64,000 nucleotides of DNA. Source: Allacma fusca. Taxonomy: Eukaryota; Arthropoda; Collembola; Symphypleona; Sminthuridae. Each line of letters starts with the position of its first letter. The stretch's first letter is position 1. Under the pieces are notes generated by a model, which had not been told where the DNA came from, made no database searches, and saw only the letters and a list, made by a program, of their open reading frames with translations. Of this stretch, positions 16,964-64,000 are shown in pieces. The position numbers and the translations under genes were made by a program. Location of the stretch: the NCBI GenBank assembly GCA_947179485.1, contig OX359248.1, forward strand, positions 2,621,501 to 2,685,500, given 5' to 3'.

Positions 16964-17048
16964 ATGAAGAAAGAGAAGCCGATGATGAGCGTGACGGCGA
17001 TCATCCAAGGATCGCAAAATCACTGGAATTCCAGAGCCAGTGTCACTC
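16964..17048 (+). CDS. RXR: Retinoid X receptor / ultraspiracle, exon 1 (N-terminus)
   Basis: RXR/USP is the common heterodimer partner of nuclear receptors and, in arthropods, partners the ecdysone receptor in the nucleus. This exon encodes 28 residues: MKKEKPMMSVTAIIQGSQ, then NHWNSRASVT, plus one base of the next codon. The KKEKPMMSVTAIIQ block is the conserved start of arthropod RXR/USP A/B domains. The donor is ACTC|GTAAGT at 17049. The leftover C joins GT of exon 2 to make CGT (Arg), giving ...ASVT-R-LSLDTN. The start at 16964 has AAG before the ATG. An in-frame ATG at 16862 is an alternative. The neighbouring DNA is non-coding on both sides. Identity is very likely; the exact 5' end is not determinable here. 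Confidence 0.92.
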
Positions 17049-34465: not shown

Positions 34466-34473
34466 ACTACATG
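34466..34473. repeat. Left 8-bp target-site duplication (ACTACATG)
   Basis: Identical to the octamer at 36121-36128 on the other side of the element. Eight-base duplications are characteristic of the hAT superfamily. Confidence 0.88.
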
Positions 34474-34513
34474 TAGTGCTGTAATTTGTTCGTTTTGTTT
34501 TGTTTTGTTCTCT
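34474..34513. repeat. Left terminal inverted repeat of hAT element
   Basis: The first 12 bases match the right end perfectly. Similarity then continues with small gaps through TTGTTCG and the TTTTGTTC repeats. Confidence 0.85.
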
Positions 34514-34584
34514 TCGGAAATGAACAAAAGTAGAACAATTTGAGTTTTGTTTTGTTCACCGAGTTTAGTTTAGTTTTGTTTTTT

Positions 34585-34622
34585 GAACAATCCGTATTGT
34601 TCAAAAAACAATCCGTATTGTT
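34585..34622. repeat. Twin palindromes inside the hAT element
   Basis: GAACAATCCGTATTGTTC (34585-34602) and AACAATCCGTATTGTT (34607-34622) are two copies of one inverted repeat with a CCGT centre, four bases apart. They may be subterminal transposase binding sites or a short tandem duplication. Confidence 0.75.
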
Positions 34623-35344
34623 TTGTTCTACCGATGTAGAAGATGTTAGAAATTTGTGAAATTGATTGGCGGATATGCTTTACAACTCTTATTTAATACA
34701 CTCATTAAACCTTTTGTTGATAGTTTCTAGGAGCGTAAGGCGTAATGTAATTCCATACATCCACAAGACCTGAAATGACCGCGTATATAAATATATCAAC
34801 AAACGATTGTGGTGGGGTTTACCTAGTATTAAGTTCTACCGATACGCATCGTTTGGGTTCGCCCGATGCCTTGATTGAATTAATTACATGTATTGTTTTT
34901 TTTGGTTTGCTTAGGCCTCTTTTATTTCTGTGTCTTCCTGTCAACTTACAGTCAGACTAGTCGAATTTCAGCAGTGGAGGTGACATTTGTCCAACTAACA
35001 ATAAGTACTGGTGTCCAACAGAAATTGCTCTCGTTTGCAATATCCGATGTACTCAAACATTTAATATCAGTACAGGTTATGGTCATAGCAGGTAACAATT
35101 AATTACTCCGTTGACCTCAAGTAGGCATTCTAAGTTTCACGTTGTTCAATAACTTTAGATTGGCCTTATAAATCTGTAAATAGTGCAAAGATTTTGTTGA
35201 CCTTACTTAAGCCCAGCGGTTCACATCATAAATGATGTGTATAGATGTAACTAAAACCGTGCACTTCAATAGCTCCTAATGGTCATTATGATGTTATTTG
35301 AGATTCATTATAGTGTATGTAAGGTCATGGGTCTACTAATAACC

Positions 35345-35915
35345 CGCAAAGGTCAAATTAAGGTCATGGGAATTCTTGTGACCCATCGACAAAATGAGAT
35401 GATGAAACTCCTTGTAGCCCACTGAGGTCAAATTGAGGTCATTGAATTTCTTGTAACCCACCGAGGTCAAATTGAGGTCATGGAATTTCTTGTAGCCCAC
35501 TGAGGTCAAATTGAGGTCATGAAATTTCGTGTAGCCCACTGAGGTCAAATTAAGGTTATGGAATTTCTTGTGACTCACTGAGGTCAATTTGAGGTCATGG
35601 AACTTGTTGTAACTCACTTAGGTCAATTTGAGGTCATGGAACTTGTTGTAACTCACTTAGGTCAATTTGAGGTCATGGAACTTGTTGTAACTCACTGAGG
35701 TTAATTTGAGGCCATAAAAGTTTTTATGACTCACTCAGGTCAATTTGAGGTCATGTTGCTATTTGTGACACTCAGGTCAATTTGAGGTCATGTTGCTATT
35801 TGTGACTCACTCAGGCCAATTTGAGGTCATGTTGCTATTTGTGACTCACTCAGGTCAATTTGAGGTCATGTTGCTATTTGTGACTCAGTCAGGTCAATTT
35901 GAGGTCATGTTACTT
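35345..35915. repeat. 39-bp minisatellite, about 15 units
   Basis: The consensus unit is roughly GAGGTCAAATT, GAGGTCATGG, then a variable AATTTCTTGTAGCCCACT. Units keep a strict 39-bp step from 35425 to 35737 and from 35774 to 35891, with one 37-bp unit between. A degenerate unit lies near 35386. Because 39 is a multiple of three, the minus strand stays open as a 13-residue repeat (KKFHDLNLTSVGY). This is a consequence of the repeat, not evidence of a gene. Confidence 0.95.
35350..35907. promoter_or_regulatory. Array of AGGTCA direct repeats with 5-bp spacing (DR5)
   Basis: Perfect AGGTCA-N5-AGGTCA pairs begin at 35350, 35425, 35464, 35503, 35581, 35620, 35659, 35737, 35774, 35852 and 35891. 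Pairs with one or both half-sites altered begin at 35542, 35698 and 35813. The spacers are AATTA, AATTG or ATTTG. AGGTCA is the half-site of RXR heterodimers and related receptors. DR5 is the classic RAR:RXR element in vertebrates, and arthropod EcR:USP is known to bind direct repeats as well as its preferred inverted repeat. Half-site starts are 11 bp apart, about one helical turn. Whether any receptor binds here is inference. Confidence 0.45.
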
Positions 35916-36075
35916 TTGGGCACTTTTCAAACTCAAAGTTTGAAAAGGTTATTACCCGCTGTTGTGGTGGTTTGTTTGTTATAGTTTTGTTTTATCTTAT
36001 CACGGTTTTGTTTTGTTCTAGTTTTGTTTTTTCGAAAACTGATTTTGTTTGTTTTGTTTTGTTCAAAAAACAAGA

Positions 36076-36120
36076 ACTGAACAAAAGAACAAACAAAACG
36101 CGAACAATATTACAGCACTA
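36076..36120. repeat. Right terminal inverted repeat of hAT element
   Basis: Ends ATTACAGCACTA, the reverse complement of the left terminus. Confidence 0.85.
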
Positions 36121-36128
36121 ACTACATG
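36121..36128. repeat. Right 8-bp target-site duplication (ACTACATG)
   Basis: Matches the left copy base for base, which suggests a fairly recent insertion or good preservation. Confidence 0.88.
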
Positions 36129-63800: not shown

Positions 63801-64000
63801 TTTGCCCCAGTCATCATTCTCCCTGGGATCGGGTTTTCTATCTTCGTCGACGAATGGCACAGGAACAAATGGAGTGTCAAATGGTGGTTCCAATGGAGTC
63901 TCCCCAACCAATGGACAGTTCCCTCCAAACCATCCGCTGAGCGGGTCAAAACATTTATGTAGTATTTGTGGTGATCGGGCTAGTGGGAAACACTATGGAG
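63801..64000 (+). CDS. RXR: Retinoid X receptor / ultraspiracle, exon 3 (linker and start of DNA-binding domain), cut by window end
   Basis: After the acceptor TTACAG, one T completes AGT (Ser), then 66 codons follow and one base of the next. The first part, [16 protein letters not shown], leads into an N/G/S-rich linker ([18 protein letters not shown], then PTNGQF). The sequence [20 protein letters not shown] then marks the A/B to DNA-binding junction shared by RXR/USP. CSIC gives the first two zinc-binding cysteines of finger 1. The P-box helix, second finger and ligand-binding domain lie beyond the window. With exons 1 and 2 the product so far is 141 residues (148 with the distal exon 2 donor). 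The alternative acceptor CCCCAG at 63810 would break the frame. Confidence 0.97.

Follow-up and report, generated by a model that had tools for sequence, protein, structure and literature searches.

Tandem DR5 motifs at the RXR gene of Allacma fusca: probably the internal minisatellite of a young hAT transposon

The dense cluster of AGGTCA direct repeats found at the RXR gene of the springtail Allacma fusca is most likely a minisatellite inside a young, non-autonomous hAT transposon which inserted there recently and by chance. The window, that is, the whole stretch of DNA that was analysed, comprises 64,000 nucleotides. This explanation is carried by the anatomy of the element, its target duplications, its family of copies, the unequal array lengths of copies whose arms are identical and the genome-wide excess of DR5 motifs (two AGGTCA half-sites in the same orientation, with a 5-bp spacer). 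According to the proposed sequence of events, a unit with two AGGTCA half-sites 11 bp apart would have been tandemly amplified inside an ancestral element, the array would then grow and shrink, presumably by slippage or unequal exchange, a hAT transposase would act on the inverted ends and on their TTTTGTTC-rich flanks to move copies, and one copy would have landed, recently and by chance, among the coding exons of RXR or just upstream of them. Each copy could act as a potential docking site for EcR:RXR, or for some other receptor, and would be at most an incidental enhancer or decoy.

The original prediction described eleven perfect AGGTCA-N5-AGGTCA repeats and three degenerate ones within about 560 bp, and a motif scan of the window recovered exactly this set, with perfect copies starting at 35350, 35425, 35464, 35503, 35581, 35620, 35659, 35737, 35774, 35852 and 35891, and degenerate ones at 35542 (one mismatch), 35698 (two) and 35813 (one). 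The array itself is slightly longer than predicted, Tandem Repeats Finder (TRF) delimiting a 39-bp minisatellite of 15.2 copies in which one unit lacks a DR5 (Table 1), and all of the 25 AGGTCA half-sites on the plus strand of the element fall within 35322-35907. Beyond the array, the window contains no DR5 match at zero or one mismatch, and three at two mismatches (42233, 51269 and 51350). When up to three mismatches are allowed, the window as a whole shows no enrichment (53 matches against a shuffle mean of 55.55, with 65 of 100 shuffles reaching 53), so that what deserves attention is the clustering of perfect sites and their regular 39-bp period.

A 93-aa frame built of a 13-residue repeat is open on the minus strand at 35336-35617, presumably because the 39-bp unit is a multiple of three, and a coding role for the array was rejected on this ground. 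An RNA family was likewise discarded as the identity of the feature, since none reached the gathering score in the window.

Transposons of the hAT superfamily have inverted ends and are flanked by 8-bp target duplications. The prediction that the array lies inside such an element was confirmed, since both features delimit it in the window. The inverted ends read TAGTGCTGTAATTTGTTCG and CGAACAATATTACAGCACTA, with TAGTGCTGTAAT at both, and a further element with related ends encodes a hAT dimerisation domain together with a BED finger below threshold. The difference from the superfamily at large is that no transposase was found in the window copy, which spans 1647 bp and holds the array. Perfect 8-bp target duplications flank 11 of the 13 copies examined (7/8 among the eight best copies, L001-L008, and 4/5 among L079-L083). 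In the former group, the duplications differ in sequence from copy to copy and L006 is without a left end by exact pattern, and in the latter the duplication of L080 is imperfect. The right arm is identical in six of the seven copies compared, the exception being L005, the array end of which was not located.

Table 1. Features of the carrier element, its array and the RXR exons, in window coordinates
Feature	Position	Strand	Basis
Non-autonomous hAT element, 1647 bp	34474..36120	+	ends, duplications, genome-wide copies
Left 8-bp target-site duplication, ACTACATG	34466..34473	.	same 8 bp on both flanks
Right 8-bp target-site duplication, ACTACATG	36121..36128	.	same 8 bp on both flanks
Left terminal inverted repeat, TAGTGCTGTAATTTGTTCG	34474..34492	+	290 exact hits across the genome, 1 with the backward-read control
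Right terminal inverted repeat, TAGTGCTGTAATATTGTTCG on the minus strand	36101..36120	-	element-end comparison
Left arm (848 bp), subterminal TTTTGTTC / GAACAAAA motifs at 34503, 34522, 34550, 34621	34474..35321	+	
Right arm (219 bp), starting with the last half-site	35902..36120	+	arm comparison
39-bp minisatellite array, about 15 units	35322..35909	+	TRF
14 DR5 units: 11 perfect, 3 degenerate	35350..35907	+	motif scan
DR5-less (B-type) unit within the array	35387..35424	+	unit reading
Candidate N-terminal coding exon of RXR (MKKEKPMMSVTAIIQG...), donor GTAAGT	16964..17048	+	inference
RXR exon: end of the A/B domain and start of the DNA-binding domain, continuing beyond the window (L009/L021)	63801..64000	+	

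Whole-genome searches gave 417 first-look candidates with the array, 541 with the left arm and 496 with the right arm, 40 of them being scored in each case. Four copies, namely that of the window (L001), L004, L007 and L008, show no difference over 848+219 = 1067 bp of arm sequence, but the array of L001 is 41 bp longer than those of the other three, which by the cut used corresponds to one unit plus one 2-bp variant; these three arrays are equal in length, that of L004 being unlike those of L007 and L008 in its unit make-up. Identical arms combined with unequal arrays indicate that the insertion is recent and that the array changes faster than the arms mutate, in the manner of a minisatellite, and the tandem units and the variable length between copies agree with that class. 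Moreover, units without a DR5 have been amplified as well (8 in L053, 9 in L057, 3 in L078 and 2 in L066), those of L053 and L057 being of the B type present in the window. The original prediction had cautioned that one founder DR5 amplified as a minisatellite would give the same picture, and this caution proved right, since copies that agree in their arms have arrays of unequal length, and DR5-less units are amplified too.

Among the members of the family, L080 (G000:C8:11839144-11845302) spans 6.2 kb and has a DR5 array; its left arm contains about 4.5 kb of additional sequence, in which no reading frame of 120 aa or more was found.

The transposase-bearing element, L079, is 6172 bp long and carries the duplication AGTACACC, its ends being 89% identical to those of the window element over 188 bp and 84.5% over 155 aligned columns. 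Its hAT dimerisation domain (PF05699, E 1.1e-11) lies above the cut-off and its zf-BED match (E 0.0033) below it. Both strands being covered, L079 contains 0 AGGTCA and 0 TGACCT but has, near both ends, the TTTTGTTC motifs common to the window element, so that the transposase can probably do without the DR5 array. That the AGGTCA repeats could themselves be subterminal repeats bound by the transposase, as the repeated subterminal motifs frequent in hAT elements might suggest, is most improbable, and this reading was rejected: the motif is absent from L079, which has TTTTGTTC in its place near both ends, and the array is internal, with 848 bp separating it from the left end and about 210 bp from the right, and so nearer to one end only. 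L079 is regarded as a relative rather than as a proven partner; a transposase of its type would presumably be the mobilising one, an actual helper role being putative. The genome is also rich in hAT transposases, the dimerisation domain giving 860 first-look candidates, of which 150, those above the cut-off, were scored and listed.

Genome-wide, perfect DR5 motifs number 5,321 against 124 for the backward-read control, the corresponding figures for DR4 being 300 and 107. The spacer AAWTTR, which is the type of the window family, accounts for 1,954 of the perfect DR5s and the spacer AATCTG for 1,631, together 3,585/5,321; these two thirds or so were assigned by spacer, location within such elements or arrays having been seen for the 46 loci read. 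The second spacer type characterizes a sister hAT element (L085 with L091 and L092, G000:C1:4957533-4959211), which possesses its own 39-bp DR5 array with the spacer AATCT, has the same terminal TAGTGCTGTAAT and shows the duplication CATGTATA on both sides. Its ends are 75% and 82% identical to those of the window element, a blastn comparison of the sequence between its termini and its array with three elements showed no similarity at E 1e-3, and, by eye, TTTTGTAC stands where the window family has TTTTGTTC. A search with its flank yielded 237 first-look candidates (40 scored). We infer that the unit was amplified before the two families split. That this transposon family could spread response elements, as originally predicted, is borne out at the sequence level by the DR5 arrays that it carries and by the thousands of perfect DR5s, most of them with the spacers of the two families. 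The spreading of the motif by the transposon is real, and the function of the motif so spread is putative.

Other repeats with similar motifs were met during this survey. The sister element contains an inverted degenerate copy of the unit beyond its array, an AATCT DR5 array at G000:C1:24462129-24462487 has a period of 38 bp and not of 39 bp, and at G000:C1:39854605-39888456 the DR4 AGGTCAGGAGAGGTCA occurs about every 2.8 kb in two runs, that is, as a larger tandem repeat with a receptor-like motif. Furthermore, near-complete COX1 copies lie within chromosomes, at L084 (G000:C12:58139742) and at other places on C5, C8 and C12. In the five best COX1 matches, one of which is on the small contig C91, TGA codons are the only stops, so that they are open under the mitochondrial code, and L084 also has, by eye, ND2-, COX2- and ATP6-like frames. 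Either they are mitochondrial DNA that was recently copied into the nucleus or they are artefacts of the assembly.

The half-sites themselves were then compared with the rest of the unit. At the 46 loci used, out of several hundred arrays (L088 gave only a partial unit), 589 units have both half-sites intact, 169 have one and 117 none. In a minimum spanning tree built from unit types with three or more occurrences, 14 of 106 propagated changes fall in the 12 half-site positions, against 12/39 expected, and among its 39 rotations the DR5 mask ranks lowest. Private changes, taken from ungapped units present in one copy only and one step away from a repeated unit of that copy, hit the half-sites in 11 of 26 cases (Fisher p = 0.0017 against the propagated set). 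This private set was weighted most, as the nearest to post-insertion mutation, and was chosen after the results of the other definitions had been seen. Compared with tree edges of at most three differences (10/59), the same private set gives p = 0.027, and with edges of exactly one (6/31) p = 0.083, the mask then ranking 3 or 4 of 39.

The other definitions gave smaller contrasts. For the ungapped units of 36 arrays, singleton changes numbered 23/87 and propagated ones 14/82 (p = 0.19, with 62 of 93 singleton units used). Thresholds of 2, 3 and 4, with singletons of at most three differences, gave 32/137 against 18/115, 32/141 against 10/75 and 32/141 against 9/68 (p = 0.15, 0.11 and 0.14), an edge unit beginning TAGTG being dropped from the propagated types from this analysis onward; the mask ranked 1, 1 and 1 of 39 rotations for propagated changes and 3, 1 and 1 for singleton ones, and singleton changes thus also sit at or close to the bottom of the ranking, which argues against a clear-cut contrast. 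Gapped units, for propagated changes only, gave 62/256, 31/149 and 30/128 (mask ranks 5, 1 and 4). Over the 46 loci, singleton or private changes were 27/112 against 14/106 propagated (p = 0.056, ranks 8 and 1) and, with gapped units included, 37/148 against 41/206 (p = 0.30, ranks 10 and 1). Defining propagated types as those present in at least two copies resulted in 16/105, 12/63, 7/45 and 6/33 for edges of any length, of at most three, of at most two and of one difference (ranks 1, 1, 2 and 4). Equal substitution of half-sites and of the rest of the unit had been named by the original prediction as evidence against it. Private changes indeed do not avoid the half-sites, but propagated ones do, and the contrast depends on the definition, from p = 0.0017 to 0.30.

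This pattern hints at a constraint on propagating lineages rather than on individual insertions. The DR5 core may serve the transposon family itself, with lineages that keep their half-sites leaving more copies and RXR being merely one landing site; receptor binding in the germline or at moulting time could, for example, open chromatin for excision or insertion. Apart from the avoidance of half-sites by propagated but not by private changes, such a constraint is supported by the sister family, where most of the units read (L085 and L086) retain both half-sites despite the diverged ends, and by the consensuses of types A, C and F and of the sister family, which differ at 0/12 half-site positions and at 7-12 of the 22 flanking ones. 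The better preservation of half-sites in propagated types and in a sister family with diverged ends would not be predicted by a purely passive minisatellite. Nevertheless, the contrast weakens under other definitions (p from 0.056 upwards), and the four consensuses were chosen by hand, leaving out type D, type B, which has no DR5, and type E, in which half-sites are changed. Recombination seeded by homology at the 17-bp core, block-like conversion between units or the choice of definitions could also produce the pattern, DR5-less units are amplified too and the transposase-bearing L079 does without the motif. All in all, a service of the core to the family is considered rather unlikely, although it is the most probable of the alternatives weighed. 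A slightly bolder version, and a slightly less probable one, would be that two sister hAT families keep DR5 arrays as receptor binding aids their propagation, tying it to hormones (e.g. ecdysteroid pulses acting through EcR:RXR) and seeding thousands of putative response elements.

Regarding the receptors that could bind, both EcR and RXR are confirmed to be present in the genome, and the receptor set, EcR included, is that of an arthropod. RAR is the usual partner of RXR on DR5 elements; inspection by eye of 30 zf-C4 loci, out of 40 matches, turned up no RAR-like domain, and the knirps-type and other receptor names were also assigned by eye. In a yeast reporter, Drosophila EcR-USP is reported to give strong 20-hydroxyecdysone-induced activation through DR5 and other elements, of which IR0 was the most responsive (PMC5494300). 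Since EcR and RXR occur in the genome and the Drosophila pair is active through DR5 in yeast, binding of DR5 by EcR:RXR would be plausible, by analogy. The original caution was that DR5 is not the preferred EcR:USP element of arthropods; in view of the yeast result, DR5 may nonetheless serve as a target there. As regards other receptors of the genome, two HNF4-like loci (G000:C1:30175510 and G000:C83:65170) have equal scores and the same aligned protein, one of them being on a small contig, and may represent a leftover haplotype; a further HNF4-like gene, so named by eye, lies on C10.

The DNA-binding domain of the 63801 exon finds its best solved matches in USP and RXR chains, and the identification of the gene as RXR is sound. 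The element lies 27.7 kb upstream of this exon. Further upstream there is a candidate first exon, which we take to resemble the N-terminal coding exon of RXR. The predicted location in RXR intron 1 is thus only partly upheld: the order of the features agrees with it, but the candidate exon is of phase 1 and the 63801 acceptor of phase 2, a mismatch which means that either there is an unseen exon between the two or the candidate does not belong to RXR. Flanking sequence on either side of the window, 120 kb in total, contains no further perfect DR5.

That a copy of the element lies near some receptor gene is not surprising. Of 25 zf-C4 exon places, a single one, that of RXR, has a listed element within 30 kb, at a distance of 29.5 kb, the next being at 65 kb; the 25 places were taken as one per gene from the 40 matches, and the 77 listed element places are an incomplete list. 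The expected number of receptor places within 30 kb of an element is 0.29 for 77 places and 0.57-1.91 for 150-500 copies, while for the candidate RXR intron alone it is 0.02-0.06. Since the locus was picked because it is RXR, the numbers covering all receptor places give the fairer comparison. Coincidence is the most likely reason for the position of the element. In this context, the array could still be thought of as an RXR/EcR-responsive enhancer or sink captured by the receptor's own gene, and the eleven perfect sites, the common strand of array and gene, the presence of EcR and the activation by Drosophila EcR-USP through DR5 reported in yeast (PMC5494300) would fit such a role. It is nonetheless highly improbable, given that the insertion is very recent, that the same array is found at many loci, that the coincidence is unsurprising and that the assignment to the intron is incomplete. 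The autoregulation or receptor titration specific to RXR that had been suggested is therefore not supported; far from being confined to RXR or to receptor genes, the array has hundreds of candidate copies elsewhere, and the insertion presumably plays no part tied to this receptor.

The part worth testing is how two hAT families have spread DR5 arrays whose half-sites may be constrained. If even a portion of the arrays bind receptors, a single transposon lineage would have endowed an arthropod genome with thousands of clustered response elements, a natural experiment on whether motifs carried by repeats rewire hormone signalling or dilute it. Should none bind, they would make a clean case of a regulatory-looking array produced by minisatellite growth and transposition. 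Either way, the question is testable with the genome-wide count, the young identical-arm copies with different arrays and the sister family.

To judge from titles and abstract openings, the literature offered no description of the window element or of tandem DR5s in a hAT element, but related systems are known. Alu-borne DR2 retinoic acid response elements, the motif of which arose largely by CpG deamination, have been described, with RAR recruitment reportedly demonstrated by ChIP for several of them (Laperriere 2007, PMC1785376). As in the present case, a transposable element multiplies consensus nuclear-receptor direct repeats through the genome; the difference is that Alu is a retroelement with recruitment of RAR shown by ChIP, while here an arthropod DNA transposon carries tandem arrays of DR5s, putative response elements. 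Non-autonomous DNA transposons with internal tandem repeats include miDNA4 of Xenopus, the DINE/Helitron central repeats and Tetris (reviewed in PMC9659126), and a minisatellite inside a bacterial MITE has also been reported (PMC4596501). All of them share with the window element a tandem array within a mobile non-autonomous element, spread by transposition, whereas the present element is distinguished by its hAT ends with 8-bp duplications and by a unit that holds a perfect nuclear-receptor direct repeat.
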